NCBI GenBank assembly: GCA_009885795.1
Contig: VFKA01000003.1
Location: 112,609 to 176,608 of the forward strand
Source of the DNA: Rhodospirillales bacterium
Lineage (GTDB): Bacteria > Pseudomonadota > Alphaproteobacteria > Dongiales > Dongiaceae
Reading direction: 5' to 3'
DNA length: 64,000 bases
Numbering within the stretch: the first letter of the stretch is position 1; every line of letters starts with the position of its first letter. Made by a program: the position numbers and the translations under genes. The notes under the pieces are model-generated. The model did not search any database. It was not told the origin of the DNA and saw only the letters and a program-made list of their open reading frames with translations. This document shows positions 15,084-32,174 of the stretch, in pieces.

Positions 15084-15497
15084 CTATCGCCGCCGCCGGT
15101 GCATCTCGATGCCGATATCGTCGTCGATGATCTGTTCCTTGCGCGCGGTGGCGGCGGCCTCCCGGCTTTTCCGGTTCGCCAGCGCGACTTCGTGGCGTTT
15201 CAAATCGCGATAGGCCTCGCGCAAGCCCTCCTCCGCGAGGGCGACTTCCGCTTCCACATTGGCGATAGACGCTAGAATCGAGCCTTTGCGCTGGCGGACC
15301 ACCCCGGCATAGGCTTGAAAGGTCCGCCCAGCCTCGATCGAGGCCGCGGCGGCGATCTTCTCGCGCGCGAATTCCTCTTCGAGCGATACGCCGTCCCGGC
15401 GCAGCCGATCCGCCAGCTGCTGCAACTCGGTCAATTGCCGGCGCCGCTCGTCGACCATCCAGCCGTGAACGCGAACCAGCTGTTCGAGCGCCTTCAC
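15084..15497 (-). CDS. fliJ: Flagellar export protein FliJ
   Basis: 137 residues, almost entirely alpha-helical with heptad-like spacing, as expected for the FliJ coiled coil that inserts into the FliI hexamer and links it to FlhA. Sequence identity is low in this family, so the call rests on size, helical coiled-coil character and position directly downstream of fliI, whose stop it overlaps by 4 bp. Confidence 0.82.
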
Positions 15498-16888
15498 GTC
15501 TTGTTCCCTTGCGGACCGTCGCCGAGAATCTCGGCGAGCCGCGTGTAGGTGTCGGCGAGCGTGGTCCGCTCGGACCGGTCCTGCGCCAGCAGCGCCTCAA
15601 GCGCGGGATAATAATGAATGGCCTCGTCGACGCCCGGATCGCTGCCCTTCTTATAGGCCCCGAGGCGGATGAGTTCGCCCATGTCCTCGTAGGTCGCCAG
15701 GAGTTGACGCGCCCGGCGCACCAGCGCGTTCTCGGCCTCGGAGTTGCATCCGGGCATGACGCGCGACACGCTGCGCAGAACGTTGATCGCCGGGTAGCGC
15801 CCTCGTTCGGCAATGGCCCGGTCGAGAACGATATGACCATCGAGAATGCCGCGCACCGCGTCGGCGATCGGCTCGTTGTGATCGTCGCCTTCGACGAGTA
15901 CCGTGAACAATCCGGTGATCGTGCCGGCGCCGGAGCCCGGCCCGGCGCGCTCGAGCAGCCGCGGCAATTCACCGAAGACCGATGGCGTGTAGCCCTTGCT
16001 GGCCGGCGGTTCCCCCGCCGACAACCCGATCTCGCGCAGCGCCATGGCAAAGCGCGTGACGCTGTCCATGAGGCACAAGACATCGTCGCCTTCATCGCGG
16101 AAGAACTCCGCGAGCGCCAGCGTCATGTGCGCGGCCTGGCGGCGCATCAGCGGCGGCTCGTCGGAGGTGGCGACGACGACGACGCTGCGCGCCAGCCCCT
16201 CGGCGTCGAGATCGTCATTGAGGAAGTCCTGCACCTCCCGCCCGCGCTCGCCGATGAGGCCGATGACGTTCACGTCCGAGGCGGTGTAGCGCGCCAGCAT
16301 GGACAGCAGGATCGACTTGCCGACGCCCGACCCGGCGAAGATTCCCATGCGCTGCCCCCGGCAGCAGGTCAGAAAGCCGTTCAGCGCCCGAACGCCGAGA
16401 TCGATCTTTCCGCCAAGACGCTGGCGCTGGTGGGCGGGCGGCGGCGCGGCGCGCAGGCGCATGGCGACCGGGCCTTGCGGGAGCGCTCCCTTGCCGTCGA
16501 TGGGCTCGCCCAGCGCGTTCACCACCCGCCCGAGCCAGGCCCGGGTCGGCCGCACCGTGGGTTCGGCGTGCGACAGCTCGGCGCGTGCCCCGAGCCCGAC
16601 GCCGTCCAGCGATCCATAGGCCATGCCGAGCGCGCGTCCGTCGCGGAAGCCTACGATTTCACAAACGATTCTCCGCTCGCGGCGATCGACCAGAACGCAG
16701 CGCGCGCCGACCGCGAGGTCGCGCCCAATCCCCTCGATCTCGACCAATAAACCGAGTACCGCCCCGACCCGGCCAAAGTGCTTGGCCTCGGGCAGGTGCT
16801 CCAAATCGGCGATCAGATCTCGCACTGGATCCACTAATTGCTTCATTTTCCGGTGAGAATCGGCGTTTTGCCCCAAGAAACCCATCAT
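15494..16888 (-). CDS. fliI: Flagellum-specific export ATPase FliI
   Basis: 464 residues with Walker A GSGVGKS at 186-192, [14 protein letters not shown], and Walker B ([13 protein letters not shown]). The [20 protein letters not shown] block identifies FliI rather than the F1 beta subunit. It energises flagellar type III export with FliH and FliJ. An alternative start at Met15 is possible. It is divergent from ctrA and shares a 147-bp promoter region with it, which carries a CtrA-type box 13 bp before this start. Confidence 0.96.
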
Positions 16889-16963: not shown

Positions 16964-17025
16964 CCAATTTCATGCACGATCGTTAACGGCGCGGAGTCAT
17001 GGGGGCGCCGGCAACCATAAATAAT

Positions 17026-17032
17026 GAGGGTG
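17026..17032 (+). promoter_or_regulatory. Ribosome binding site deciding the ctrA start
   Basis: GAGGGTG lies 4-10 bases before the ATG at 17036. This favours the canonical N-terminus MRVLLVEDD over the in-frame ATG at 17024, which has no such site. Confidence 0.6.
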
Positions 17033-17035
17033 TCC

Positions 17036-17752
17036 ATGCGCGTACTCCTGGTGGAAGACGATTCCGGAACCGCACAAAGCATCGAGCTGATGCTGAAATC
17101 CGCGGGCTTCATCGTTGATTCGACCGATCTCGGCGAGGATGGGCTCGAGATCGGCAAGATTTACGATTACGACATCATCCTGCTCGACCTCATGCTGCCG
17201 GACATCGACGGCTACGAGGTTCTGCGCCGGATGCGGGCCGCGCGCATCAATACGCCAATTCTCATTCTGACCGGTCTGGGCGAGCTCGACAACAAGTTGA
17301 AGGGGTTGGGGCTCGGGGCCGACGACTATCTGGTGAAGCCCTTCGACAAGCGCGAACTCATTGCCCGGATCCAGGCCATTATCCGGCGTTCCAAGGGGCA
17401 CGCGGAATCGGTCATCCAGACCGGCAAGCTGAAGGTCAATCTGGACGCCCGCACCGTCGAGGTCGAAGGCCAGCCGCTGCATCTTACCGGCAAGGAATAC
17501 GGCATCCTCGAACTCTTGTCGCTGCGCAAGGGAACGACGCTGACCAAGGAGATGTTTCTCAATCATCTCTATGGCGGCATGGACGAGCCCGAACTCAAGA
17601 TCATCGACGTCTTCGTCTGCAAGCTGCGCAAGAAATTGACGGCGGCGGCTAGGGGCGAGACCTATATCGAAACGGTCTGGGGCCGCGGCTACGTGCTGCG
17701 CGATCCCGTCGTGACGGAGAACCAGCCCGAGGCGCGCCGCGCCGCCGGCTGA
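17036..17752 (+). CDS. ctrA: Cell-cycle response regulator CtrA
   Basis: 238 residues. The receiver domain ([20 protein letters not shown]) has phospho-acceptor Asp51 in [19 protein letters not shown] and the CtrA-specific [18 protein letters not shown]. The winged-helix domain contains [20 protein letters not shown] and [20 protein letters not shown], which are nearly diagnostic for CtrA. In this class it is the master regulator of cell cycle and/or motility and is phosphorylated through CckA-ChpT. It is divergent from fliI and followed by a strong terminator. SciP, its inhibitor, and ChpT, its phosphotransferase, are both in the window. Confidence 0.98.
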
Positions 17753-17827: not shown

Positions 17828-18691
17828 TCAGCCGACCGCGAACCGGGCTGGAGCGCCGGCGGTGTGCGCCGCCGGGACGCCCGCGGCGATCGTATAGACG
17901 CCGCGCTGGCCCTCGATGAGTTGAAAGCGATCGGAGACCCCGATCACGGTCTCGGCGCCGCCCAGATAGAGAATGCCATCGCCGGGCATCTGGCGCGCGA
18001 TGCCGGCCAAGACCTTGGCCTTGGTCGGATGCTCGAAGTAGATGAGAACGTTACGGCAGAACACGATATCGAAGCGCCCCAGCGGCGCCGGATCGTTGAG
18101 CAGATTGAAGGGACGGAACGTAACCATGTCGCGAATCTTCTGGGCGATCTGCCAGCGATCGCCGTTCTGCTCGAAATGTTTCATCAGCATCGTGATCGGA
18201 AGTCCGCGTTGGACCTCGAACTGGGAGTAGGCGCCTTCTTTCGCCCGGCGCAGGATGTCGCCCGACAAATCGGTGGCCAGGATGTCGACGCGCCAGCCGG
18301 CCAGCTTGGCCGCCTCCTCGCACAGGATCATGGCAATGGAGTAGGGCTCCTGTCCGCTCGAACACGCCGCGCACCAGATCCGAATGTGGCGCTGCTGCGC
18401 CCGGTTTTTCAGCATGCGCGGAAGAACCAGCGTGCGCAACTGGTCGAACGGCCGCGTGTCGCGGAAAAAGAACGATTCGTTCGTGGTCATGGCCTCGACC
18501 ACGTCGCGCAGGAGTTTCTCATCCGGCCGCGAACGCATCGCCTTGGCCAGCGCATCGAAGTTGGCGAACTTCCAGCGCGTCGCCACCGGCATGAGGCGGC
18601 TTTTCAGAAGGTAGGCCTTGTCCTTCGACAGAACGAGACCGGACTGCTCCTTCAGCATCTTGCAGAAGAAATCGTAGTCCTGGACGTTCAT
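17828..18691 (-). CDS. cheR: Chemotaxis protein methyltransferase CheR
   Basis: 287 residues starting MNVQDYDFFCKMLKEQSGL. The CheR N-terminal helical domain is followed by the SAM-dependent methyltransferase domain with RIWCAACSSGQEPYSIAMIL, DILATDLSGDIL and FDIVFCRNVLIYF. It methylates glutamates of methyl-accepting chemoreceptors for adaptation. The start codon overlaps the cheB stop in an ATGA. It is the last gene of the chpT-cheAWYBR operon. A long upstream in-frame extension lies within cheB and is not used. Confidence 0.97.
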   Translation of the reverse strand: MNVQDYDFFCKMLKEQSGLVLSKDKAYLLKSRLMPVATRWKFANFDALAKAMRSRPDEKLLRDVVEAMTTNESFFFRDTRPFDQLRTLVLPRMLKNRAQQRHIRIWCAACSSGQEPYSIAMILCEEAAKLAGWRVDILATDLSGDILRRAKEGAYSQFEVQRGLPITMLMKHFEQNGDRWQIAQKIRDMVTFRPFNLLNDPAPLGRFDIVFCRNVLIYFEHPTKAKVLAGIARQMPGDGILYLGGAETVIGVSDRFQLIEGQRGVYTIAAGVPAAHTAGAPARFAVG

Positions 18692-19842
18692 GACAAGACA
18701 CCCTGAACGGTCCTTCGCACGCGCGAGGGCAGCTCCAGCAGCGGCAGGACGGCACTGCACAGGCCGGCGGCGGCAACCGCTCCCGGCATGCCCCAGACGA
18801 CGCTCGACGCCTCGTCCTGCGCAATGACCTGGCCGCCCGCCGTCACCACGGCCTCCGACCCGCGAAGGCCGTCGCTGCCCATGCCCGTCAGCATGACCAT
18901 GAGAACCGCGTTGCCATAGGTGGCGGCGATGCCGCGCAGCATCGGATCGACCGATGGACGGCAGAAATTCTCGGCCGGTGTCTTGAGCAGCTTGATCTGT
19001 TTCCTGCCGCCCTCGTTCACGACGGTCATGTGGAAATCGCCCGGTGCCACATAAATGCGCCCCGGTTGGACCTCCTCGCCATTCTGCCCTTCGGCCGCCG
19101 GCATGCCGGCCGCCTGTCCCACATGCTCGGCCAGGATCATGGTGAAGGTCGGCGGCATGTGCTGGGTGATGAACACCGGCAGCTTCATCCACGCGCCCAT
19201 GCCGGCAATGAACTTGCCGAGCGCCTGCGGTCCCCCGGTCGAACTGCCGATCGCCAGCGCCTCGGGGCGCCCCCGCGGCGCCGGCCGCAGAACGATCGGA
19301 GATCCGGATTTGATCGGCTTCCACATCGGTGCCGTTCCCCCGGCGGCGACGCCGGGTTCCGACGGCGGCGGCAGGCCGCGCTCCTTTCGATAGACGCCGC
19401 CCCAGGCCTTGACCTTGGCGACAAGTTCGCGGTTGAAGTCGACGGCGCCGGCCAGGCTCTTGCTCGAGGGTTTGGGAATGTAATCCGATGCTCCCGCCCT
19501 CATCGCCTTCATGCTGATGGACGCGTTCTGCAGCGTCAACGTCGAGGCCATGATGACCTTGAGGCCGGGCTTGGCGGCGATCAGCTTCGGCAGCGCCGTG
19601 ATGCCGTCCATGACCGGCATCTCGATGTCGAGCACGACGATTTCGACGTCGTTCCTGGCCAGGGCACCGATCGCCATCTCGCCATTGCCGACCGAGGCGA
19701 CGATGCGAATGCCGGGATCGCTCTCGAGCGCCTTGCTGAGAAGCCCGCGGATGACCACCGAATCGTCGACGACCATGACGCGCAGCCGCGCGTCGCGCGA
19801 CGCTTCGGCCGGCGCGGAGGCATTGGAAATGCTTGTCAACAT
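18688..19842 (-). CDS. cheB: Chemotaxis methylesterase/glutamine deamidase CheB
   Basis: 384 residues. Receiver domain with Asp72 (VVLDIEMPVMDG), an 80-residue linker, then the methylesterase domain with the catalytic Ser region AIGSSTGGPQAL, His in FITQHMPPTFT and Asp in the MGSDGLRGSEAV/VDPMLRGIAATYG segment. It demethylates chemoreceptors when phosphorylated by CheA. The ATG at 19842 overlaps the cheY stop by 7 bp; longer reading-frame extensions lie inside cheY. Confidence 0.97.
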   Translation of the reverse strand: MLTSISNASAPAEASRDARLRVMVVDDSVVIRGLLSKALESDPGIRIVASVGNGEMAIGALARNDVEIVVLDIEMPVMDGITALPKLIAAKPGLKVIMASTLTLQNASISMKAMRAGASDYIPKPSSKSLAGAVDFNRELVAKVKAWGGVYRKERGLPPPSEPGVAAGGTAPMWKPIKSGSPIVLRPAPRGRPEALAIGSSTGGPQALGKFIAGMGAWMKLPVFITQHMPPTFTMILAEHVGQAAGMPAAEGQNGEEVQPGRIYVAPGDFHMTVVNEGGRKQIKLLKTPAENFCRPSVDPMLRGIAATYGNAVLMVMLTGMGSDGLRGSEAVVTAGGQVIAQDEASSVVWGMPGAVAAAGLCSAVLPLLELPSRVRRTVQGVLS

Positions 19843-20207
19843 TCGATGAGACCGACTTGCGTGAATTTCGTTTCGATGATTTCGGTGTCGAACGGCTTCA
19901 TGATGTATTCGTTGGCCCCGGCCTGGATCGCCTCGCGAATGTGCGAGAGGTCGTTCTCCGTCGTGCAGAACACGACAATGGGCCGATCGCCGCCCGCGGT
20001 CTGCCGCAGCTGCCTCAGGAAATCGATCCCGCTCATGACCGGCATGTTCCAATCGAGCAGAATCGCCTCCGGCATCCGGCGCAGACAGGCATCCATCGCC
20101 TGTTGACCATCCTCCGCCTCTTCGATTTCGAACTCGAGACCCTCGAGTATCTTGCGCGCGACCATGCGCACGACCCGAGAATCATCGACGACCAAGCACG
20201 ATTTCAT
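19836..20207 (-). CDS. cheY: Chemotaxis response regulator CheY
   Basis: 123 residues forming a single receiver domain: acidic pair in CLVVDDSRVVRMVARKIL, phospho-acceptor Asp52 in LLDWNMPVMSG, Thr in FCTTENDLSH, and Lys104 in YIMKPFD. It has no output domain, so it most likely signals to FliM. It sits between cheW (57 bp upstream) and cheB (overlapping). Confidence 0.95.
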   Translation of the reverse strand: MKSCLVVDDSRVVRMVARKILEGLEFEIEEAEDGQQAMDACLRRMPEAILLDWNMPVMSGIDFLRQLRQTAGGDRPIVVFCTTENDLSHIREAIQAGANEYIMKPFDTEIIETKFTQVGLIEC

Positions 20208-20263
20208 TGCATTGCCTGTGACTGTGGTTCCAACCCGGACGAGCGTGGGTTCAAGCTCCCGCC

Positions 20264-20755
20264 TTACGCCGCTTCGCGATTGCCGAAAACCAGCAGCCGG
20301 GCGACGTTGAGAACAATGAGCAGTTTGCCGTTCAAGCGGTAGATGCCGTCCGAGAATTCCCGCCAACGCGCATCCACGGTCGGCGGGCTGGCCTCGAACT
20401 CGCTGGATTTGAGACTGAGAACCTCGCCCACCGAATCGACCAGCAGGCTGTAGAGCTCGCCGCCGTCCTCGACCACGATGCTCATCGCTTTTTCGTCTTT
20501 CTCGCGCGGCGGCAACGATAGCCGGATGCGGACATCGACCGCCGTCACGATGCGCCCACGCAGATTGAGCGATCCCGCGACGTCGGGCGGCGCCAGGGGA
20601 ATGCGCGTGATGCGTTGCTGCCCGAGCACGTCCTGCACCTTCAGCACCGGGATGCCGAACAGGTACCCGCCGATCGTCATCGACACGAAGTCCTTGTGGT
20701 TGTCGTTCGCTTCGACCTCGGTCGAAGCGGCGGCAGCTTTGCGGTTTTTGGTCAT
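20264..20755 (-). CDS. cheW: Chemotaxis coupling protein CheW
   Basis: 163 residues with one CheW beta-barrel domain: SMTIGGYLFGIPVLKVQDVL, ITRIPLAPPDVAGSLNLRGR, IVTAVDVRIRLSL and VVEDGGELYSLLVDSVGEVL. It links chemoreceptors to CheA. The start overlaps the cheA stop by 1 bp (20755). Confidence 0.96.
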   Translation of the reverse strand: MTKNRKAAAASTEVEANDNHKDFVSMTIGGYLFGIPVLKVQDVLGQQRITRIPLAPPDVAGSLNLRGRIVTAVDVRIRLSLPPREKDEKAMSIVVEDGGELYSLLVDSVGEVLSLKSSEFEASPPTVDARWREFSDGIYRLNGKLLIVLNVARLLVFGNREAA

Positions 20756-23727
20756 TATGCGGCTCCTCGTAACTGAGTGAATGTTTCCGACAGCGCCTGC
20801 AACAGGCCGTCGCGGTCGAACTTCGCCACGTAGTCGGCAAAGCCGGCCTTGCGCCCGCGATCGATGTCCCGCGGACTGGCATGCGATGACAGCGCCACCA
20901 TCGGCGTATCGCGCCAGCGCTGGCTCTTCTTGACGGTCTCGGCGAACTCGAATCCGTTCATGCCGGGCATTTCGATATCGCTGATGATGACATCGAACTC
21001 GTCGCCCGATTCGTGCAGCGTCATGGCCTTGTCGGCGCTTTCCGCCGTCGTGACGCTGTAGCCGGCGACCGACAGAAGCGGGGCCAGCAGGTTGCGGAAG
21101 AACGCGCTGTCATCGACCAGCAGCAGACGCCTGCGATTCTGGATCTCGAAATCCGACTCGCCGGCGCTGCCGAACCAATCGCCGAAGGCTTGAGTAAGGA
21201 AATGGCCGGCGTCGACGATCTCGGTGGCATGGCCGTTGATGACGGCCGTGCCCAAATAGCCGCTGCGGTCGGAAGACAGTTTGACGTCGAGGTCGCATTC
21301 GACGATATCGACGATCCGATCGACGACCAGGCCCATCGTCCGGTCGCGATCGGAGAACACCAGCATCGGCTGGCGCCCGCTCTCGCGAATCTTGAAGTCC
21401 TCGGCCATAGGAACCAGGGGCATGAGCTGGCCGCGATATTGCACGACCAACTGGCCGTTCGAACGCTCGATCTGCGACACGTCGATTTCCTCGAGGCGCG
21501 CCACGAGAGCCAGCGGAACGGCCTTTGGAGTATCGTTGGCCGCCGTGAAGACGAGCATCGACTGCCTTTGTTGCTTGCTCTTGCCCTGTTGGGTCGCGAC
21601 CTCCGCATTGCCAACACCGCTTGCGTTCATCTGTCCGCTCGCGGCCGCGATACCATTCGGGTCGAGGATCATGATGACGCTGCCATCGCCAAGGATGGTG
21701 TTGCCGGCGAACATCGCTATGTCGCGCAGGATCGGAGCCACCGGTTTCACCACGATTTCCTCGGTGTCGAAGACGCGATCGACCATGATGCCGAAACTGT
21801 GGGTTCCGACCTGGGTCACGACGATATAGTGCTCGGTCGCTTCGACGCCGGCTCCGCTCGTCAGCCCCATCATGTCATTCAGCATGACCAGCGGCAGCAG
21901 GCGATCCCGCAACCGCAGGACCGGTGTCGACTTGATGCGTTCGACCTTGTGTTCCGAATTCGGCGAAACGCGCACCAGCTCCAGCACGCTGATCTGCGGA
22001 ATGGCGAAGCGCTCGCCGCCGCACGCCACGATCAGGGCGGAGACGATCGCCAGCGTCAGCGGAATCTTGATGACGAAGGTCGATCCCTGGCCCTCGACCG
22101 ACCGCATTTCGACGGTACCGCCGATCCTCTCGATGTTGGTCCGCACCACGTCCATGCCGACGCCGCGCCCCGATACGCTCGTGACTTTCGCCGCGGTGGA
22201 GAAGCCGGCCTTGAAGATGTATTGCTGGATCTGCTGGACGCTCATCTGCGTCAGCTCGGCCTCGGTTGCGAGCCCGTTCTGAACCACCTTAGCCTTGATC
22301 TTGTCGAGCGGCAGGCCCCGCCCGTCGTCCTTGATCTCGATGATGATGTGGCCGCCTTCGTGATAGGCGTTGAGCGTGACCTTTCCGGTCTCGGACTTGC
22401 CGGTCGCCCGCCGATCGGCGGGCGTCTCGAGGCCGTGATCGGCGGAGTTGCGGACCATGTGGGTCAGCGGATCCTTGATCATCTCGAGCACCTGGCGGTC
22501 GAGTTCGGTCTCGGCGCCCAGCATCACCAGGTCGATCTTCTTGCCAAGCTCGTGGGCAAGATCGCGCACCAGGCGCGGCAGCTTCGCCCAGGCGTTGCCG
22601 ATGGGCTGCATCCGCGTCTTCATCACGCCCTCTTGCAGCTCGGAGGTAATGTGATTGAGCCGCTGCAGCGGGGCGGCGAAGTCGCTGTCCTTCTTGGTGC
22701 GCAGGATCTGCAGCACCTGATTGCGGGTCAGCACCAATTCGCTGACCGTGGTCATCAGGTTTTCGAGCAGGTCCACGTTGACGCGGATCGATTGGGCGGC
22801 GACGGCCGATTCCTTCGCTTCGGCGTTTTCGCCTTCGACTTTCGCTTTCGTTTCCGTCATCTTTCGCTCCTTGGTTGCGGGCGCGGCTATGGTAGGTTCC
22901 GGCGCGGCGGGCTCTGGCGCGACAATCGCGGCCGGCGCCGGCGCGTTGCCGCCGGCAAGGCCGCGCGACTGCTGCAATTTGTGCATGATGGCGGTGATGG
23001 CCTTGGCCGGCACTTCCAGCGCGGTCATCGCCTCGTTCAAGTAACCGTCGAGGATAGCGACGTCCTTCGCCCCCATCCCCGGAGACACGAGCCATTCGTG
23101 GCCGGCGGCAAGCGCCGCCTCGTTTCCGCCACTGGGCCCGCCCAGAAGCATGCCCAAGGAATCCCGCTGGCCGGCCTGAAGCCGGTCCAGGTTCACATCG
23201 GCGACGAAGCCCTTAAGGCGGTCATCCGCCATGACCTTCATGTAGAGCGACTCGATAAACGCATCGATGGTGGCAAGGCCGCCGACTTGCTCGAACAAAC
23301 TTCCCTTGGGCTCGGGCTCGGGGGCCTTGGCCGCCGGCGCCGGCGCGCCGGTCCCATCGGCCAGCGCGTTCAACCTTGCGATCAGCTCGCCGTCTTCGCC
23401 GGCGGGCTCGGTCTCGGCCGCTTCGAGCGCCGTCATGATCGTGCGCACGCGATCCAGGCATTCGAGGATGAGCGAGACCGCCGCGGGCGTCACTTCGAGA
23501 GCGCCATCGCGCAGCTTGCCCAGAATGTTCTCGCCCGCATGAGCCACCGATTCGAGGCGCGGCAGTCCGATGAACCCGCACGTGCCCTTGATGGTATGAA
23601 CCAACCTGAAGATGCTGCCCAGCAGATCCGGATTGTTCGGGTTCTGCTCGAGCTTGACGAGCTCGACATCGAGTACGGCGAGGCTCTCCGATGTTTCAGT
23701 CAGAAACTCGCGAAGCAGGTCGTCCAT
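20755..23727 (-). CDS. cheA: CheA histidine kinase with embedded truncated-hemoglobin domain and C-terminal receiver
   Basis: 990 residues, longer than ordinary CheA. Domains: HPt 1-105 with phospho-His44 (RLVHTIKGTCGF); a truncated globin at about 142-256 flanked by Ala/Pro/Glu-rich linkers; dimerisation domain from about 314; ATPase domain with HMVRNSADHGLE (423-434), DDGRG (467-471) and GRGVGMDVV (520-528); first CheW domain about 560-695; second CheW-like domain about 722-850; receiver 866-985 with Asp917. The globin segment aligns without gaps to M. tuberculosis trHbN (compared from memory), keeping Tyr162 (B10), Leu183 (E7), Gln187 (E11) and proximal His210 (F8). No ordinary P2 domain is visible; the globin takes its place. 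It presumably phosphorylates CheY and CheB, with ligand-bound heme as a possible input. Confidence 0.95.
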   Translation of the reverse strand: MDDLLREFLTETSESLAVLDVELVKLEQNPNNPDLLGSIFRLVHTIKGTCGFIGLPRLESVAHAGENILGKLRDGALEVTPAAVSLILECLDRVRTIMTALEAAETEPAGEDGELIARLNALADGTGAPAPAAKAPEPEPKGSLFEQVGGLATIDAFIESLYMKVMADDRLKGFVADVNLDRLQAGQRDSLGMLLGGPSGGNEAALAAGHEWLVSPGMGAKDVAILDGYLNEAMTALEVPAKAITAIMHKLQQSRGLAGGNAPAPAAIVAPEPAAPEPTIAAPATKERKMTETKAKVEGENAEAKESAVAAQSIRVNVDLLENLMTTVSELVLTRNQVLQILRTKKDSDFAAPLQRLNHITSELQEGVMKTRMQPIGNAWAKLPRLVRDLAHELGKKIDLVMLGAETELDRQVLEMIKDPLTHMVRNSADHGLETPADRRATGKSETGKVTLNAYHEGGHIIIEIKDDGRGLPLDKIKAKVVQNGLATEAELTQMSVQQIQQYIFKAGFSTAAKVTSVSGRGVGMDVVRTNIERIGGTVEMRSVEGQGSTFVIKIPLTLAIVSALIVACGGERFAIPQISVLELVRVSPNSEHKVERIKSTPVLRLRDRLLPLVMLNDMMGLTSGAGVEATEHYIVVTQVGTHSFGIMVDRVFDTEEIVVKPVAPILRDIAMFAGNTILGDGSVIMILDPNGIAAASGQMNASGVGNAEVATQQGKSKQQRQSMLVFTAANDTPKAVPLALVARLEEIDVSQIERSNGQLVVQYRGQLMPLVPMAEDFKIRESGRQPMLVFSDRDRTMGLVVDRIVDIVECDLDVKLSSDRSGYLGTAVINGHATEIVDAGHFLTQAFGDWFGSAGESDFEIQNRRRLLLVDDSAFFRNLLAPLLSVAGYSVTTAESADKAMTLHESGDEFDVIISDIEMPGMNGFEFAETVKKSQRWRDTPMVALSSHASPRDIDRGRKAGFADYVAKFDRDGLLQALSETFTQLRGAA
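22960..23304 (-). other. Truncated (2/2) hemoglobin domain inside CheA
   Basis: Codes CheA residues 142-256. Family features are SLFEQVGG at the A/B helices, LYMKVMADDRL at the B/C turn, RLQAGQ on helix E, LLGGP, and the proximal AGHEW. The distances between Tyr162, Leu183, Gln187 and His210 equal those between Y33, L54, Q58 and H81 of trHbN. A working heme pocket is inferred from these residues, not shown. Confidence 0.88.
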
Positions 23728-23865: not shown

Positions 23866-24570
23866 TCAGTCGACCCGGAGAATGGCCTCGAATTCGACCG
23901 CGCCGGCTTGGGCGGCCGGTGCCGGCAGCGTTGCGCCGTGGCGCGCGGCGAACGTCTTTACGAAGTATGCGCCGACATTGCCAACCGTTAACGAGCCCAC
24001 GTCGCCGTCGCCCCCCAGGATGCCCATGGATTCCAGGGGAACGTGAGCGTCCGACCCTTTAGCCACGACCTTGATCCGCATACCCAGGTCGGTTGTGGCG
24101 ATCCGCGCCGACAAGACGCCGCCGCGCGCCAGGCATTCCGCCGCAAGCATGACCAGCCCGAGCAACATCCGGCCCCCACCCGGCGGCAATTCCGGCGCGC
24201 CCTCGGCCGTCGGCCATTCCAGCGCGATCTTCCTTCCGTCAAGGTAGCCGGAGGCCAACTGCCCGGCTTCAGCAAGCCCCAGGATCTGCCGCGCGCCGCC
24301 CGATCCAAAGACCAGGCGGAAGAACTGTAAGCGCCCCGACGCCCGGCGCGCGCTCTGCTGGGACAGTTCCATGGCCTCCTTGGCCAGCGCCGCGTCGCCT
24401 TCTTCCATGAGCTCGAGGCCGTTGCCGATGGCGCCGACGGGGCTGATCAAGTCATGACACAGCCGCGAAACCAGCAATTCGGTCAACAGCAATTCGACGT
24501 TTGCCGCCACGAGGCACTCTCCCGGATCCCACGCCGCCCCGCCGTATCTGGCGGTGGCGCGACTCGTCAT
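23866..24570 (-). CDS. chpT: Histidine phosphotransferase ChpT
   Basis: About 234 residues from the ATG at 24570. The dimerisation helix has the ChpT signature SRLCHDLISPVGAIGNGLEL with phospho-His39, and the degenerate ATPase-like domain ends VGNVGAYFVKTFAARHGATL. ChpT relays phosphate from CckA to CtrA and CpdR, so with CtrA and SciP in the window it completes part of that circuit. It precedes cheA by 138 bp on the same strand. An ATG at 24588 is an alternative start; earlier codons overlap the divergent DUF3553 gene. Confidence 0.88.
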   Translation of the reverse strand: MTSRATARYGGAAWDPGECLVAANVELLLTELLVSRLCHDLISPVGAIGNGLELMEEGDAALAKEAMELSQQSARRASGRLQFFRLVFGSGGARQILGLAEAGQLASGYLDGRKIALEWPTAEGAPELPPGGGRMLLGLVMLAAECLARGGVLSARIATTDLGMRIKVVAKGSDAHVPLESMGILGGDGDVGSLTVGNVGAYFVKTFAARHGATLPAPAAQAGAVEFEAILRVD

Positions 24571-24618
24571 GGCGTGGGATACTGCCATCGATGCCGGCCA
24601 GAAAGCGAGTGCCGACCG

Positions 24619-24801
24619 TTGGAAGCCACGTTTGCTCCAGGCGACTTCGTCCGTCACCCGCAACAGTTGGACTGGGGCATCGGCCAGGTTCAATCCGCCG
24701 ACGGCCATCGAATCACGGTCAATTTCGAGCATGCCGGCAAGCGCCTCATCAACATCGACGTGATTGCCTTGACGAGAATTGAAGCCGACTCTAACGGTTA
24801 G
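24619..24801 (+). CDS. Small DUF3553 protein
   Basis: About 60 residues from a TTG start. The core FAPGDFVRHPQQLDWGIGQV followed by VNFEHAGKRLINIDVIAL is the DUF3553 (SH3-like, CarD/UvrD-tail-like) fold, common in alphaproteobacteria beside chpT. The function is unknown; a nucleic-acid or RNA-polymerase contact is only a guess from the fold. The start is uncertain: an in-frame GTG further upstream would overlap chpT. The stop is 1 bp before the formate dehydrogenase start. Confidence 0.7.
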   Translation: MEATFAPGDFVRHPQQLDWGIGQVQSADGHRITVNFEHAGKRLINIDVIALTRIEADSNG

Positions 24802-24802
24802 C

Positions 24803-26512
24803 ATGGCCGAATCCACCGAACCCGGGAACAAGGGAACGCGCCCCGGCGCCGGGCGGCGCCAGGCCGTGCCCTTTCCGAAGGGCCGGCAGGTGGACCCCGC
24901 CGCGCTCGCCGAGGTTGGCGCGCTGCTCGGCGACAGGCCGCGCCGGCGCGACCTTCTGATCGAGCATCTGCACCTGATCCAGGATCGCCATGGTTGCCTC
25001 GAGGCAGCACACCTCGCCGCCTTGGCGGAAGAAATGAAAATGGCGCTCGCCGAGGTCTACGAGGTGGCCACGTTCTATGCCCATTTCGACGTGGTGCGCG
25101 AGGATGAGGTTCCGCCCCCTGCCCTCACCGTTCGGGTCTGCGACAGCCTGACTTGCGAATTGATGGGCGCGGCCAGACTTCTCGATGGCCTGCAACGGAA
25201 GTTGGACCCCCGGCGGGTTCGCGTCGTGCGCGCGCCCTGCATGGGCCGGTGCGATATGGCGCCGGTCGCCGAAATCGGCCACCATCACGTCGACCGCGCC
25301 AGCGTGGACAAGGTCGCGGCGGCCGCGCTCGCCGGCCACACGCACCCGGACATACCGCGCTACAAGGGCTTCGAGGACTACCTGGCGGGTGGCGGCTACG
25401 CGTTGCTCGAAGCCGCGCGCGCCGGCAAGCGCACCGTCGACGACCTCATCGCCCTCATGGAGGCCTCGGGTCTCAGGGGGCTCGGCGGCGCCGGCTTCCC
25501 GGCCGGGCGCAAGTGGCGCTTCGTGCGCCAGGAGCCGGGACCCCGCCTCATGGCCGTCAACGCCGATGAAGGCGAGCCCGGCACCTTCAAGGACCGCTAC
25601 TACCTGGAAACCGACCCGCATCGTTTTCTCGAAGGCATGCTGATCGCGGCCTGGGCGGTGGAGGCGCCGGACGTCTACATCTATCTGCGCGACGAATATC
25701 CGGCGATCCGCGAGATCCTGCTGAAGGAAATCGCCCATCTCGAGGCGCGCGGCCTTAACGGCCCGACACGAATCCATCTTCGCCGCGGCGCCGGCGCTTA
25801 TATCTGCGGCGAGGAATCGGCGATGCTGGAAAGCATCGAGGGCAAGCGCGGTCTGCCGCGCCACAAGCCGCCCTACCCTTCGCAGGTCGGCCTGTTCGGG
25901 CGCCCGACGCTCATCCACAACGTCGAGACGCTCTATTGGGTGCGCGAGATCGTCGAGCGCGGGCCGGCGTGGTTGCAGAGCCACGGGCGCAACGGCCGCA
26001 TGGGCCTGCGCGGGTTTTCGGTATCGGGGCGCGTCAAGGAGCCAGGCGTCAAGCTGGCGCCGGCCGGCATCACCGCCAAGGAGCTCATCGACGAGTTCTG
26101 CGGCGGCATGGCCGAGGGTCATCGCTTTAAGGGTTACCTGCCGGGCGGGGCGTCGGGCGGCGTTCTGCCGGCCGGCATGGCCGACATACCGCTCGATTTC
26201 GGGACGCTGGAGCCGCATGGCTGCCTGATCGGCTCGGCCGCGGTCATCGTGCTGTCCGACAAGGACAGCATGAAAGACGTGGCGCTGAACCTTATGCGAT
26301 TCTTCGAGGACGAATCCTGCGGCCAGTGCACGCCCTGCCGGGTCGGCACCGAGAAAGCGGTGAAACTGATGTCGCGCGAGCGCTGGGACGAGGCGCTGTT
26401 GACCGAGCTCGCCGCCGCCATGACCGATGCCTCGATCTGCGGCCTCGGCCAGGCCGCCTGCAATCCGCTGACGACCGTGATGAAACACTTCCGCGACGAT
26501 TGGGCGGGATAG
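24803..26512 (+). CDS. fdsB: NAD-dependent formate dehydrogenase, fused NuoE-NuoF-type diaphorase subunit
   Basis: 569 residues. Residues 45-165 are a complete NuoE-like unit: helical DLLIEHLHLIQDRHGCLEAA and a thioredoxin-fold 2Fe-2S domain with Cys113, Cys118, Cys146 and Cys150. Residues 185-569 are NuoF-like with FMN/NADH sites GLGGAGFPAGRKW (226-238), ADEGEPGTFKDR, and ICGEESAMLESIEGKRG. The C-terminal 4Fe-4S motif is SCGQCTPCRVGTEK with a distal Cys. It passes electrons from FdsA to NAD+. The ATG at 24803 gives the natural N-terminus. In FDH operons the catalytic gene normally follows directly; here it is 2.9 kb away. Confidence 0.92.
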   Translation: MAESTEPGNKGTRPGAGRRQAVPFPKGRQVDPAALAEVGALLGDRPRRRDLLIEHLHLIQDRHGCLEAAHLAALAEEMKMALAEVYEVATFYAHFDVVREDEVPPPALTVRVCDSLTCELMGAARLLDGLQRKLDPRRVRVVRAPCMGRCDMAPVAEIGHHHVDRASVDKVAAAALAGHTHPDIPRYKGFEDYLAGGGYALLEAARAGKRTVDDLIALMEASGLRGLGGAGFPAGRKWRFVRQEPGPRLMAVNADEGEPGTFKDRYYLETDPHRFLEGMLIAAWAVEAPDVYIYLRDEYPAIREILLKEIAHLEARGLNGPTRIHLRRGAGAYICGEESAMLESIEGKRGLPRHKPPYPSQVGLFGRPTLIHNVETLYWVREIVERGPAWLQSHGRNGRMGLRGFSVSGRVKEPGVKLAPAGITAKELIDEFCGGMAEGHRFKGYLPGGASGGVLPAGMADIPLDFGTLEPHGCLIGSAAVIVLSDKDSMKDVALNLMRFFEDESCGQCTPCRVGTEKAVKLMSRERWDEALLTELAAAMTDASICGLGQAACNPLTTVMKHFRDDWAG

Positions 26513-28429: not shown

Positions 28430-29224
28430 TCAGATCCCGTCGTCCCCGACAATGAACAATTCATCGCCATTCTCTAGGAGTTCTCCCAGTCTCGGAGCGG
28501 ACGACGCCGCATTCGCTTCGCACCATAACCTTCCTTCCTCGCGAGTAGGTGTCCCCTTCAACGTTGTATAATGGCCACAAGTTGTCATCGCGGTCACTCG
28601 TCCACGTCCGGCCTCAAACTCGGCGAATTGAACACGCGAGCTCTCCTTTAGATCGATTGTCTTGGCATCGAACGCCTCTGTTTGCCATGCAAACCTGATC
28701 AAGAAAATCGCATTTGGGCCTTCAATTACGTGGTACGAGGATATGATTCCTTTCGCAGCTGAGAGTCCACCCGAGGGCGAAGCGTCGCGGACGCGTCCGC
28801 AATACGTCAAGAATTGATAGGCATTGAAATGATCCGGGATGAACATCTCGGACCTGGCACTCACACACGACTCGTCAACGTGACTAACGACCGCTTCTAA
28901 TTGTTTCTGTAGTTCATCTTTGACCCCGCGCCGTTTGGTCACTGTAACCGAGAACAACTGCTGCCATTCTCCCATTTCTCGAGGAATCGGCGCGAACTCG
29001 ATCACGCGAGTCTCGACGGTTCGATCATCGCGGAGTCTTACCCATCCTTCGGGCACCGCAACAGCCAAATGTTGAAAGGCAAGCGTGCGCTGCGGAGTTC
29101 CCCTTGCCGCGTCGGCGCAGCCAGAAATCAGGGTCGCCAACAACACCGCCATGCAGTACACCCCCGGATTGAGTCCTGAGGTGTTGGTGGTCCCTGGCGA
29201 GAAAATTACCGTTTTCATGGGCAT
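28430..29224 (-). CDS. Predicted lipoprotein, paralogue B
   Basis: Up to 264 residues. A hydrophobic stretch CMAVLLATLISGCADA contains a lipobox; the true start may be at 29224, 29218 or the Met just before the hydrophobic run (about 29152). Shared blocks with paralogue A include HLAVAVP-GW, VIEFAP, a central Cys-containing segment, and a C-terminal E-GD-L-VGD motif. Unknown function. It is 11 bp upstream of paralogue A and probably co-transcribed, reading away from fdsA. Confidence 0.68.
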   Translation of the reverse strand: MPMKTVIFSPGTTNTSGLNPGVYCMAVLLATLISGCADAARGTPQRTLAFQHLAVAVPEGWVRLRDDRTVETRVIEFAPIPREMGEWQQLFSVTVTKRRGVKDELQKQLEAVVSHVDESCVSARSEMFIPDHFNAYQFLTYCGRVRDASPSGGLSAAKGIISSYHVIEGPNAIFLIRFAWQTEAFDAKTIDLKESSRVQFAEFEAGRGRVTAMTTCGHYTTLKGTPTREEGRLWCEANAASSAPRLGELLENGDELFIVGDDGI

Positions 29225-29390
29225 TGGTCACGCTGTGTCGTTGACGGAAGTGGTCGTGGACAATGCTATCCGCTTCCCACGATTGCTTCAACGGCGGCCG
29301 GCTGGTGCGGCTTGTCCTCGACCCGGCGTTCGGCTAAACCCGCCAGGCCAGCGGCGAGACCGCCGTCGCGGATGTTTCAAGGACCGTTCA

Positions 29391-32174
29391 ATGACCGAAC
29401 CCATCACCTTCACCCTCGACGGAAGCGAAGTGACCGCCGAGACCGGCGAGACCATCTGGCAGGTGGCCAACCGGCTTGGCAACGAGATCCCGCATCTGTG
29501 CTGGCAGCCCCTGCCGGGCTATCGGGCCGACGGCAATTGCCGGGCCTGCATGGTCGAGGTCAAGGGCGAACGCGTGCTGGCCGCTTCTTGCGTGCGCAAA
29601 CCCGCGCCGGGCATGGTCGTCATCACCGACAACGATCGGGCCAAGACCGCGCGGCGCATGGTGATCGAGATGCTGGTCGCCGACCAGCCGGCGAAGGCGG
29701 TCGCGCGCGACCCGCGGTCGGAGTTCTGGCGCTGGGCCGACGCCATGGACGTGACGGCGAGCCGGCTGCCCTCGCGCGGCAAGACCGGAAACGGCGTGCC
29801 GGCGCCCGACCGCTCGCATCCGGCGATGGCCGTCAATCTCGACGCCTGCATCCAATGCAACCTATGCGTGCGCGCCTGCCGCGAGGTCCAGGTCAACGAC
29901 GTGATCGGCATGGCCTATCGCGGCGCGCACGCCAAGATCGTGTTCGACTTCGACGATCCGATGGGGGGGAGCACCTGCGTCGCCTGCGGCGAGTGCGTGC
30001 AGGCCTGCCCCACCGGCGCCCTCATGCCATCCAATCTTCTGAACGAACGGAACGAGCGGACCCAATACGCCGACCGCGCGGTCGATTCGCTCTGCCCCTA
30101 TTGCGGCGTCGGCTGCCAGACCACCTTCCACGTCAAGGACGACAAGCTGCTCTACGTCGAAGGGCGCGACGGCCCGGCCAATGAGAACCGGCTCTGCGTC
30201 AAGGGCCGCTTCGGCTTCGATTACATTCACCACCCGCATCGCCTCATGAAGCCCTTGCTGCGGAAAGCGGGCGTGCCGAAGCACGCCGACGACCGGGTCG
30301 ATCCGGCCAATCCGTGGACGCATTTCCGCGAGGCCTCGTGGGACGAGGCGCTCGATGTCGCGGCGGGGGGCTTCAAGCGCGTGCGCGACCGCGACGGGCC
30401 GGCGGCTCTGGCGGGATTCGGCTCGGCCAAGGGCTCGAACGAGGAAGCGTATCTCTTCCAGAAGCTGGTGCGCACCGGCTTTGGCACCAACAACGTCGAT
30501 CATTGCACGCGCCTCTGTCACGCCTCCTCGGTGGCGGCGCTGATGGAATGCATCAACTCCGGCGCCGTCACCGCGCCCTTCACCGCCGCCAAGGACGCCG
30601 AGGTCATCTTCGTGATCGGCGCCAATCCGACCGTCAATCATCCGGTCGCCGCCACCTTCATCAAGAACGCGGTGAAACGCGGCGCCAAACTCATCGTCGC
30701 CGACCCGCGCGGCCAGTCGCTGTCGCGCCACGCCACCCACATGCTGAAGTTCAAGCCCGGCGCCGACGTGGCGCTCCTGAACGCCATGCTCCACACGATC
30801 ATCGCCGAGGACCTCCACGACAAGCAGTATGTCGAGGGTTACACGGAGGGGTTCGCGGCCTTGCGCGAGAAGATCAAGGACTTCGTGCCGGAAAAGATGG
30901 CGTCCGTCTGCGGCGTCGATGCTCAGACCATCCGGACGGTGGCGCGCCTGTTCGCGACCTCGAAGGCCTCCATCATTTTCTGGGGCATGGGCATCTCGCA
31001 GCACGTTCACGGCACCGACAACGCCCGCTGCCTCATCAGCCTCGCCCTCATCACCGGCCAGATCGGGCGGCCCGGCACCGGCCTTCACCCCTTGCGCGGC
31101 CAGAACAACGTGCAAGGCGCCTCCGACGCCGGCCTCATCCCGCTGGTCTATCCCGACTACCAAAGGGTCGGGGACGCGAAGGTCAGGAAGCTGTTCGAGG
31201 AGTTCTGGAAGACGGACCTCGACCCATTTAACGGACTCACCGTCGTCGAGATCATCAACGCGGCCCATGACGGCAAGATCAAGGCCATGTATGTCGAGGG
31301 CGAAAATCCGGCCATGTCCGATCCCGACGCCCACCACGCCCGCGAGGCGCTGGCGCGGCTGGAGCACCTGGTGGTGCAGGACATTTTTCTCACCGAGACC
31401 GCGTTTTATGCCGACGTCGTCCTGCCGGCGTCCGCGTTCCCGGAGAAGGACGGCACCTTCACCAATACCAACCGGCAAGTGCAGATGGGCCGCGCGGCGC
31501 TGAAGCTGCCGGGCGAGACGCGCCAGGATTGGTGGATCATTCAGGAGATCGCGCGGCGCATCGGGCTCGATTGGACCTACACGCATCCGCGCGACGTGTT
31601 CGCCGAGATGGCCCGGATCATGCCGTCCTTCAAGAACATCACCTGGCGGCGCCTGGAGCGGGAGGGCTCGGTGACCTATCCATGCGACAGCGCCGACGGG
31701 CCCGGCAACGAGATCATCTTCGGCGGCGGATTTCCAACCGCGAGCGGGCGCGGCAAGCTCGTGCCCACCGACATCGTGCCGCCCGACGAATTGCCCGACC
31801 AGGACTATCCCATGGTCTTGTCGACCGGCCGGCTCCTCGAACATTGGCACACCGGCGCCATGACCAGGCGCGCGACCTATCTCGACGAGATCGAACCGGA
31901 AGCGGTCGCCAGCATGTCGCCGCGCGATCTCCAGCGCCGGGGGTTCTCCGCCGGCGAGATCCTCCGCGTCAGCACGCGCCGCGGCGCCATCGACATCAAG
32001 GTGCGCTCCGACCGCGACGTTCCCGAGGGCATGGTCTTCATCCCGTTCTGTTTCGCCGAGGCCGCCGCGAACCTGTTGACGAACGCGGCGCTCGATCCCA
32101 TCGGCAAGATCCCCGAATTCAAGTTCTGCGCCGCGAAGGTGGAGGCCGCCGCCCGAGTGCAAGCGGCGGAATAG
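29391..32174 (+). CDS. fdsA: NAD-dependent formate dehydrogenase catalytic subunit FdsA
   Basis: 927 residues from the ATG at 29391, with AAGGA 8 bases upstream. An N-terminal 2Fe-2S ferredoxin domain (Cys37, 50, 53, 67) is followed by a NuoG-like 4Fe-4S region (CIQCNLCVRACREV and CVACGECVQACPTG) and SLCPYCGVGCQT before the bis-pterin Mo/W domain. The metal ligand is probably the Cys of CTRLCHASS (no selenocysteine). The C-terminal domain has VLSTGRLLEHWHTGAMTRR. It oxidises formate to CO2 and passes electrons to the FdsB diaphorase. No small FdsD subunit was seen after it. Longer 5' extensions overlap the divergent lipoprotein gene. Confidence 0.96.
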   Translation: MTEPITFTLDGSEVTAETGETIWQVANRLGNEIPHLCWQPLPGYRADGNCRACMVEVKGERVLAASCVRKPAPGMVVITDNDRAKTARRMVIEMLVADQPAKAVARDPRSEFWRWADAMDVTASRLPSRGKTGNGVPAPDRSHPAMAVNLDACIQCNLCVRACREVQVNDVIGMAYRGAHAKIVFDFDDPMGGSTCVACGECVQACPTGALMPSNLLNERNERTQYADRAVDSLCPYCGVGCQTTFHVKDDKLLYVEGRDGPANENRLCVKGRFGFDYIHHPHRLMKPLLRKAGVPKHADDRVDPANPWTHFREASWDEALDVAAGGFKRVRDRDGPAALAGFGSAKGSNEEAYLFQKLVRTGFGTNNVDHCTRLCHASSVAALMECINSGAVTAPFTAAKDAEVIFVIGANPTVNHPVAATFIKNAVKRGAKLIVADPRGQSLSRHATHMLKFKPGADVALLNAMLHTIIAEDLHDKQYVEGYTEGFAALREKIKDFVPEKMASVCGVDAQTIRTVARLFATSKASIIFWGMGISQHVHGTDNARCLISLALITGQIGRPGTGLHPLRGQNNVQGASDAGLIPLVYPDYQRVGDAKVRKLFEEFWKTDLDPFNGLTVVEIINAAHDGKIKAMYVEGENPAMSDPDAHHAREALARLEHLVVQDIFLTETAFYADVVLPASAFPEKDGTFTNTNRQVQMGRAALKLPGETRQDWWIIQEIARRIGLDWTYTHPRDVFAEMARIMPSFKNITWRRLEREGSVTYPCDSADGPGNEIIFGGGFPTASGRGKLVPTDIVPPDELPDQDYPMVLSTGRLLEHWHTGAMTRRATYLDEIEPEAVASMSPRDLQRRGFSAGEILRVSTRRGAIDIKVRSDRDVPEGMVFIPFCFAEAAANLLTNAALDPIGKIPEFKFCAAKVEAAARVQAAE

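Follow-up and report, generated by a model that had tools for sequence, protein, structure and literature searches.

A group I truncated-hemoglobin domain within the chemotaxis kinase CheA of a Dongiaceae bacterium and its alphaproteobacterial relatives

In the standard view of bacterial chemotaxis, receptors sense and CheA merely relays. HemAT-type globin-coupled sensors (PF11563) employ a globin within the chemotaxis pathway, but this belongs to the protoglobin class and is carried on the receptor rather than on the kinase. Here, a CheA that contains a truncated-hemoglobin domain between its phosphotransfer and dimerisation domains is described from a 64,000-nucleotide stretch (referred to as the window) of the genome of a Rhodospirillales bacterium (Alphaproteobacteria, Dongiaceae; assembly GCA_009885795.1, contig VFKA01000003.1, positions 112,609 to 176,608 of the forward strand), and is compared with known systems and with its relatives.

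Truncated globins on methyl-accepting chemotaxis proteins (MCPs) are already in print: in the accessible portions of PMC6194562, the C. coralloides MCP Cc_4972 carries a Bac_globin, which is of the same family as the domain described here and as those of two further MCPs found in this work (P0014 and P0016), with the globin on the receptor and not on the kinase, and no globin is mentioned for the CheA encoded in that cluster. The accessible text of a 2026 aerotaxis review places globins under receptors (PMC13401364), and the available passages of PMC7082302 mention fusions of truncated hemoglobins to a protein kinase and to nitrate reductase. For CheA itself, the part of a 2023 survey open to reading lists P2, receiver and CheC/CheX as auxiliary domains, its abstract presents CheA as having no sensor (input) domain, and the words ‘globin’ and ‘heme’ are absent from its main text, figures and tables aside (PMC10782961); the CheA proteins with auxiliary domains surveyed there share with the window's protein the common core of Hpt, dimerisation, HATPase and CheW domains plus a C-terminal receiver. 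No description of a globin on CheA was found in the open-access literature, as far as its text was accessible (including PMC10782961, PMC6194562, PMC13401364, PMC7082302, PMC3770913 and PMC1592074), which bears out, within that literature, an earlier sequence-only reading of the window whose author knew of no such system.

A group I globin in the P1–P3 linker

The protein is a CheA: an Hpt (P1) domain with its phospho-acceptor histidine and the dimerisation (P3), HATPase (P4) and CheW-like (P5) domains all score over their Pfam cut-offs, and the column of His44 holds His in 31 of 32 aligned rows, where the window's protein appears twice and the broken fragment L019 is blank (such codes are our handles for loci, L; proteins, P; genomes, G; and families, f). 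Residues 142–256, between P1 and P3 in the Pfam layout, match the truncated-hemoglobin profile PF01152 with 25.7 bits in the whole protein and 31.6 bits as the segment alone, against a curated cut-off of 21, and their predicted structure is a 2-on-2 globin fold. Both the best PDB sequence match (E 9e-13) and the best fold match are to group I truncated hemoglobin (trHbN). In the trHbN alignment, His210 falls on position 81, the proximal His F8, whilst Tyr162, Leu183 and Gln187 occupy B10, E7 and E11, respectively. The sequence-only reading was therefore correct as to globin class, position and these four residues, and the profile search and structure prediction that it proposed as checks both returned a group I globin.

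A chance match is ruled out by the E value and the predicted fold; a protoglobin or globin-coupled sensor identity, by PF11563, which is absent from the Pfam matches of the CheA and has no match in the window's genome; and a frame or annotation error, by the 990-residue frame, which is open and colinear with its orthologues. The segment was also considered as a P2 domain, and no P2 profile matches it. The truncated-hemoglobin domain inside CheA is real and well supported as domain architecture. It is like trHbN in profile, in its closest PDB sequence and fold and in the B10, E7, E11 and F8 residues, and differs in residing in a kinase and in having Val and Ser at two further pocket positions; heme binding, too, is here a prediction.

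Recurrence, insertion site and origin

The CheA globin is encoded in 16 of the 17 genomes of the order, with an open CheA frame in 15; in the sixteenth (G015, locus L019) two in-frame stop codons, perhaps an artefact of assembly, break the frame. The remaining genome (G001) yielded no globin domain and has a shorter CheA frame. Among 385 genomes of the class beyond the family, a search with the globin alignment gave any match in 73, and some of the long frames read from it proved to be CheA with a globin at the corresponding place between P1 and P3. A CheA orthologue, recognised by its core region at E≤1e-200, is present in 113 of the 385; 109 of these were fetched (G018, G071, G257 and G355 were left out), and 17 carry a linker globin, 15 clearly and two very weakly (L135 and L162), a few rows being N-terminally truncated.

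Altogether, 40 of 133 CheA proteins (126 loci and seven database proteins) have a linker globin and 93 have none, in an uneven sample to which G241, with 10% contamination, contributes two. They represent 12 of the 67 coded families (two of these through very weak matches only), and the list is extended by f181 (L198), f184 (L197) and the SI072 metagenome-assembled genome (L061). This recurrence, like the repeated loss of HisF8 described below, is new. The insertion, which the sequence-only reading had suggested seeking among Rhodospirillales, is hence neither unique to the window's genome, as relatives have it, nor confined to the family of Dongia, as other families of the class do. In a search of 398 genomes of the phylum, five stretches were followed among the matches listed, and both CheA fusions (L197 and L198) belong to the same class, a weak negative for the rest of the phylum. 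The globin-like linker domain of L197 and L198 lacks HisF8 and is preceded by a motif resembling GEVSxxELEAAF. L199, L200 and L201 proved not to be CheA. Among the long frames read within the class, L076 and L089 turned out not to be fusions to CheA, and L079, L087 and L088 encode different proteins. Outside the class, several genomes (for example G418, G442 (f188) and G466 (f207)) have two stand-alone truncated-globin genes separated by about 500 bases.

The sequence-only reading held that the globin replaces P2, the domain that docks CheY and CheB, and this did not stand. A search of 372 genomes of the class with the P2 profile PF07194 gave no match (its controls rang in 4 of 14), no P2 or CheY-binding family is among the seven Pfam families of the window's CheA at E≤1, and 84 of the 93 globin-less CheA keep a P1–P3 linker of 55–148 residues, of low complexity in those read. 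Two globin-less linkers are longer (179 residues in L017, 197 in L026) and in seven the length was unmeasurable (L019, L025, L123, L128, L144, L154 and L168). Because PF07194 is absent and such linkers are retained, the globin was likely, though not certainly, inserted into a linker already without P2 and not swapped for it. According to the accessible part of the survey, P2 is missing from more than half of CheA, and profile searches recover under half of the P2 domains detected by more sensitive methods (PMC10782961), so that an earlier loss of P2 is likely and not proven. The motif GEVSxxELEAAF is found in the linker of 11 of the 133 CheA (for example L023, L025, L029, L118, L140 and P0015), twice in three of them, and is a possible docking motif.

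The globin trait requires nine changes on the CheA core tree (127 rows, without the six truncated or broken rows L019, L123, L130, L144, L146 and L159), at least seven of them forced by well-supported branches, and ten once L197 and L198 are added. The globin tree (70 rows, without L135 and L162, which score under 40 bits, and without stand-alone matches below 30 bits; P0006 is represented by two of its domains) requires six changes and splits up the 16 globins from the family of the window's bacterium. One group (support 94/88) comprises 32 of the 38 linker globins and one MCP globin, with L074, L075, L078, L082, L086 and P0015 outside it. Approximately unbiased tests rejected neither the union of all 38 linker globins in a single clade (p-AU 0.085) nor that of the family's 16 (p-AU 0.29). 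Since the domain is short, one gain with many losses and several gains are both kept as possible origins of the CheA globins.

The domain also occurs elsewhere in the chemosensory array. L074 and L078 have, besides the linker globin, a second and fully canonical globin (residues 709–822 and 658–772 of their CheA frames, respectively), which by reading sits in an apparent loop of P5. The globin of the MCP P0016 pairs with the P5 globin of L078 (support 99/98), and that of the MCP P0014 pairs with the CheA globin of P0012 (support 96/91), which suggests shared use of the module. In our own reading, the truncated globin is a module moving between parts of the array. Both MCPs, P0014 and P0016 (PF00015), combine a truncated globin at the N-terminus with PAS domains; P0014 additionally bears a precomputed PF11563 label, and the N-terminal parts of L079 and L088 have a similar layout. 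L087 (2479-3684, +) is by reading a CheW-like protein with a C-terminal truncated globin that lacks HisF8, in a genome whose CheA (L121) is globin-free, and P0006 (1086 residues) reads as about eight tandem truncated-globin domains.

The heme pocket and the role of the domain

The pocket was called complete in the sequence-only reading, which overstates it: four of six positions are canonical, and the window's CheA has Val175 and Ser190 at what we take to be CD1 and E14, positions that presumably pack on the heme. By comparison, all 25 stand-alone or tandem relatives (two domains of P0006 included) and the four receptor globins have CD1 Phe, E14 Phe and F8 His; in P0002, the closest relative of the window's protein, CD1 is Ile and E14 is Ser. 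Among 38 aligned linker globins, CD1 is Phe in 30 and E14 is Phe or Tyr in 29, and ten have the full Tyr/Phe/Leu/Gln/Phe/His pocket (L070, L071, L072, L075, L086, P0008, P0009, P0010, P0012 and P0013). With its Val and Ser, the window's pocket is intermediate between canonical kinase globins (such as L070–L072, P0008–P0010, P0012 and P0013) and heme-less ones. The domain is somewhat more probably a heme binder, through His210, than an apoprotein.

HisF8 is kept in 24 of 40 linker globins; in the 38 aligned, F8 is otherwise Pro (5), Phe (5), Lys (3) or Leu (1). Counting L197 and L198, it is absent from 18 of 42 globin-bearing CheA, with eight changes on a tree that omits the short L072 and L086 (the labels were set by hand from the alignment, and those of L197 and L198 by reading their sequences). 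The His-less domain of the Dongia group retains the predicted fold with good confidence and is under purifying selection. Lineages without HisF8 probably retain the fold as a module that works without heme, in docking or spacing.

That a group I globin in CheA, with heme predicted on His210, would let oxygen (O2) or nitric oxide (NO) tune phosphotransfer from within the kinase itself appears to us an even prospect; that a gas ligand gates the window's own CheA is conceivable and held with rather less confidence. In such a mechanism, two low-complexity, Ala/Pro-rich and presumably flexible linkers would tether the globin between P1 and P3, and heme would be held despite Val at CD1 and Ser at E14. 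Binding of O2 or NO would shift docking of the globin on P1, on P4, on the partner globin of the CheA dimer or on substrate regulators, and the frequency with which P1 meets the ATP site or CheY/CheB, and so gains or passes phosphate, would change accordingly. Poor conservation of the Ala/Pro-rich linkers that flank the globin is the reason for preferring tethered docking to rigid conformational coupling, and docking that depends on ligand would explain why the globin recurs in CheA, is shared with MCPs and is inserted in P5. More broadly, and tentatively, a wide range of alphaproteobacteria may sense gas through heme in CheA itself, where the linker globin (twice also one in P5) would read O2 or NO and override the receptor array or set its gain, the module having later turned heme-free several times.

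In favour of gas sensing by CheA stand the globin type, its recurrence with HisF8 in 24 of 40 and the full pocket in ten, the conserved E-to-F stretch and the low substitution ratios of His-bearing pairs given below, and the pairing of MCP globins with CheA globins; so do, in the window's genome, the lack of a protoglobin match and the single MCP signalling-domain match (G000 contig C65:461-958, L192) vs 2–40 in 16 family relatives. Several observations weigh against it. The Val and Ser may weaken heme binding, the structure model is least certain around F8 (predicted local distance difference test score ~58), and the poorly conserved linkers offer no obvious allosteric path. Globins of the f87 group evolve fast, with ratios of nonsynonymous to synonymous substitution rates (dN/dS) of 0.51 and 0.73 that exceed those of their linkers in most comparisons. 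The receptor count is a lower bound, because its one match runs off a contig end in a 103-contig assembly, and receptors may be missing. (The idea that loss of HisF8 tracks receptor number comes from counts only.) The absence of HisF8 in 18 of 42 argues that heme is unneeded for whatever keeps the domain.

This last point leads to the principal alternative, under which the fold works today without heme and in the role of P2, either recruiting CheY/CheB or ChpT to P1 by docking or acting as a spacer that adjusts the reach of P1, with His210 a leftover; as the fold is kept in several lineages without the heme ligand, this is a serious possibility, albeit the lesser one. It fits less well with the nearest pair, P0001 and P0002, whose globin regions are 72% identical and share an unchanged stretch from the E helix to just past F8 (Leu183–Trp212, including GlnE11 and HisF8) although the linkers on either side align poorly, with the retention of B10, E11 and F8 in L003, P0002 and L004, or with the full canonical pocket in ten linker globins and both P5 globins.

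A heme-binding globin could instead act locally within the receptor array, removing NO as a dioxygenase or buffering O2, and leave the kinase ungated. The TyrB10/GlnE11 pair is the same as in trHbN, and M. tuberculosis trHbN has NO dioxygenase activity, according to the available part of PMC7082302; nevertheless, we consider this improbable, as another contig of the window's genome already encodes a truncated hemoglobin that stands alone and has a canonical pocket (L001), no reductase is fused to CheA among its Pfam domains, and repeated insertion into CheA of a module common to MCPs points to signalling. A neutral passenger, dropped into a permissive linker and decaying, would suit the patchy distribution with its nine changes, the fast f87 pairs and the very weak remnants L135 and L162, and is the least probable reading given globin dN/dS of 0.03–0.34 in all pairs with a value apart from those of f87 (11 of 13; 0.17–0.22 in three His-bearing g4 pairs, L008, L015 and L016; of 14 pairs, L084–L085 was saturated, and a core value was available in 11), the near-universal retention in the order described above and folds predicted with good confidence.

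Gene neighbourhood and implications

The features of the kinase and its neighbours are collected in Table 1. On one strand, the order around cheA is ChpT-like gene, cheA, cheW, cheY, cheB and cheR. Four flagellin matches, one right at the cut-off, were found in the window's genome. Near the che genes, the window encodes Nuo51-like and molybdopterin/2Fe-2S proteins (24779-26512 (+) and 29085-32174 (+)), perhaps an NAD-dependent formate dehydrogenase. The L001 hemoglobin gene (1489-1860) is followed on the same strand by a gene (1911-2927) that by eye resembles a ferredoxin-type reductase.

Table 1. Coordinates in the window of cheA, its domains and pocket residues, and neighbouring genes (ORF, open reading frame)
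Feature	Position	Strand	Basis or remark
cheA	20755..23727	(-)	990 residues; Hpt, globin, dimerisation, HATPase, two CheW stretches, receiver
Hpt (P1) domain, His44	23440..23721	(-)	residues 3-96; Pfam PF01627, E 1.3e-16
Linker A, Ala/Pro-rich	23305..23352	(-)	residues 126-141; from sequence; poorly conserved among relatives
Group I truncated-hemoglobin domain	22960..23304	(-)	residues 142-256
Tyr162 (B10)	23242..23244	(-)	trHbN alignment
Val175 (CD1)	23203..23205	(-)	pocket alignment
Leu183 (E7)	23179..23181	(-)	trHbN alignment
Gln187 (E11)	23167..23169	(-)	trHbN alignment
Ser190 (E14)	23158..23160	(-)	pocket alignment
His210 (F8; proximal heme ligand by homology)	23098..23100	(-)	trHbN alignment
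Linker B, Ala/Pro/Glu-rich	22804..22959	(-)	residues 257-308; from sequence; low conservation
Dimerisation (P3) domain	22615..22794	(-)	residues 312-371; Pfam PF02895
HATPase (P4) domain	22054..22473	(-)	residues 419-558; Pfam PF02518
First CheW-like (P5) domain	21646..22038	(-)	residues 564-694; Pfam PF01584 (two stretches in protein)
C-terminal receiver domain	20791..21123	(-)	residues 869-979; Pfam PF00072
ChpT-like histidine phosphotransferase	23866..24831	(-)	upstream of cheA; Pfam PF10090
cheW	20264..20755	(-)	downstream of cheA; Pfam PF01584
ORF with cheY	19836..20882	(-)	receiver ~19872-20195; Pfam PF00072; true start probably downstream of ORF start
ORF with cheB	18688..20052	(-)	receiver and methylesterase
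ORF with cheR	17828..19324	(-)	
Receiver/winged-helix regulator	17024-17752	opposite to cheA	
FliI-type ATPase	15494..16888	(-)	flagellar by its FliJ neighbour
FliJ	15084-15497		beyond the che genes; adjoins FliI-type ATPase

A globin within CheA would put a whole-cell signal, O2 or NO, straight onto the kinase that is common to all receptors. The relatives amount to a natural experiment, with kinases that have a canonical pocket, a drifted pocket (the window's CheA) or no heme ligand, from which it may be learned what heme adds to a chemotaxis kinase. If CheA is indeed a gas sensor, these proteins would form a graded series from gas-sensing to gas-blind kinases, represented here in a genome in which one chemoreceptor was found.

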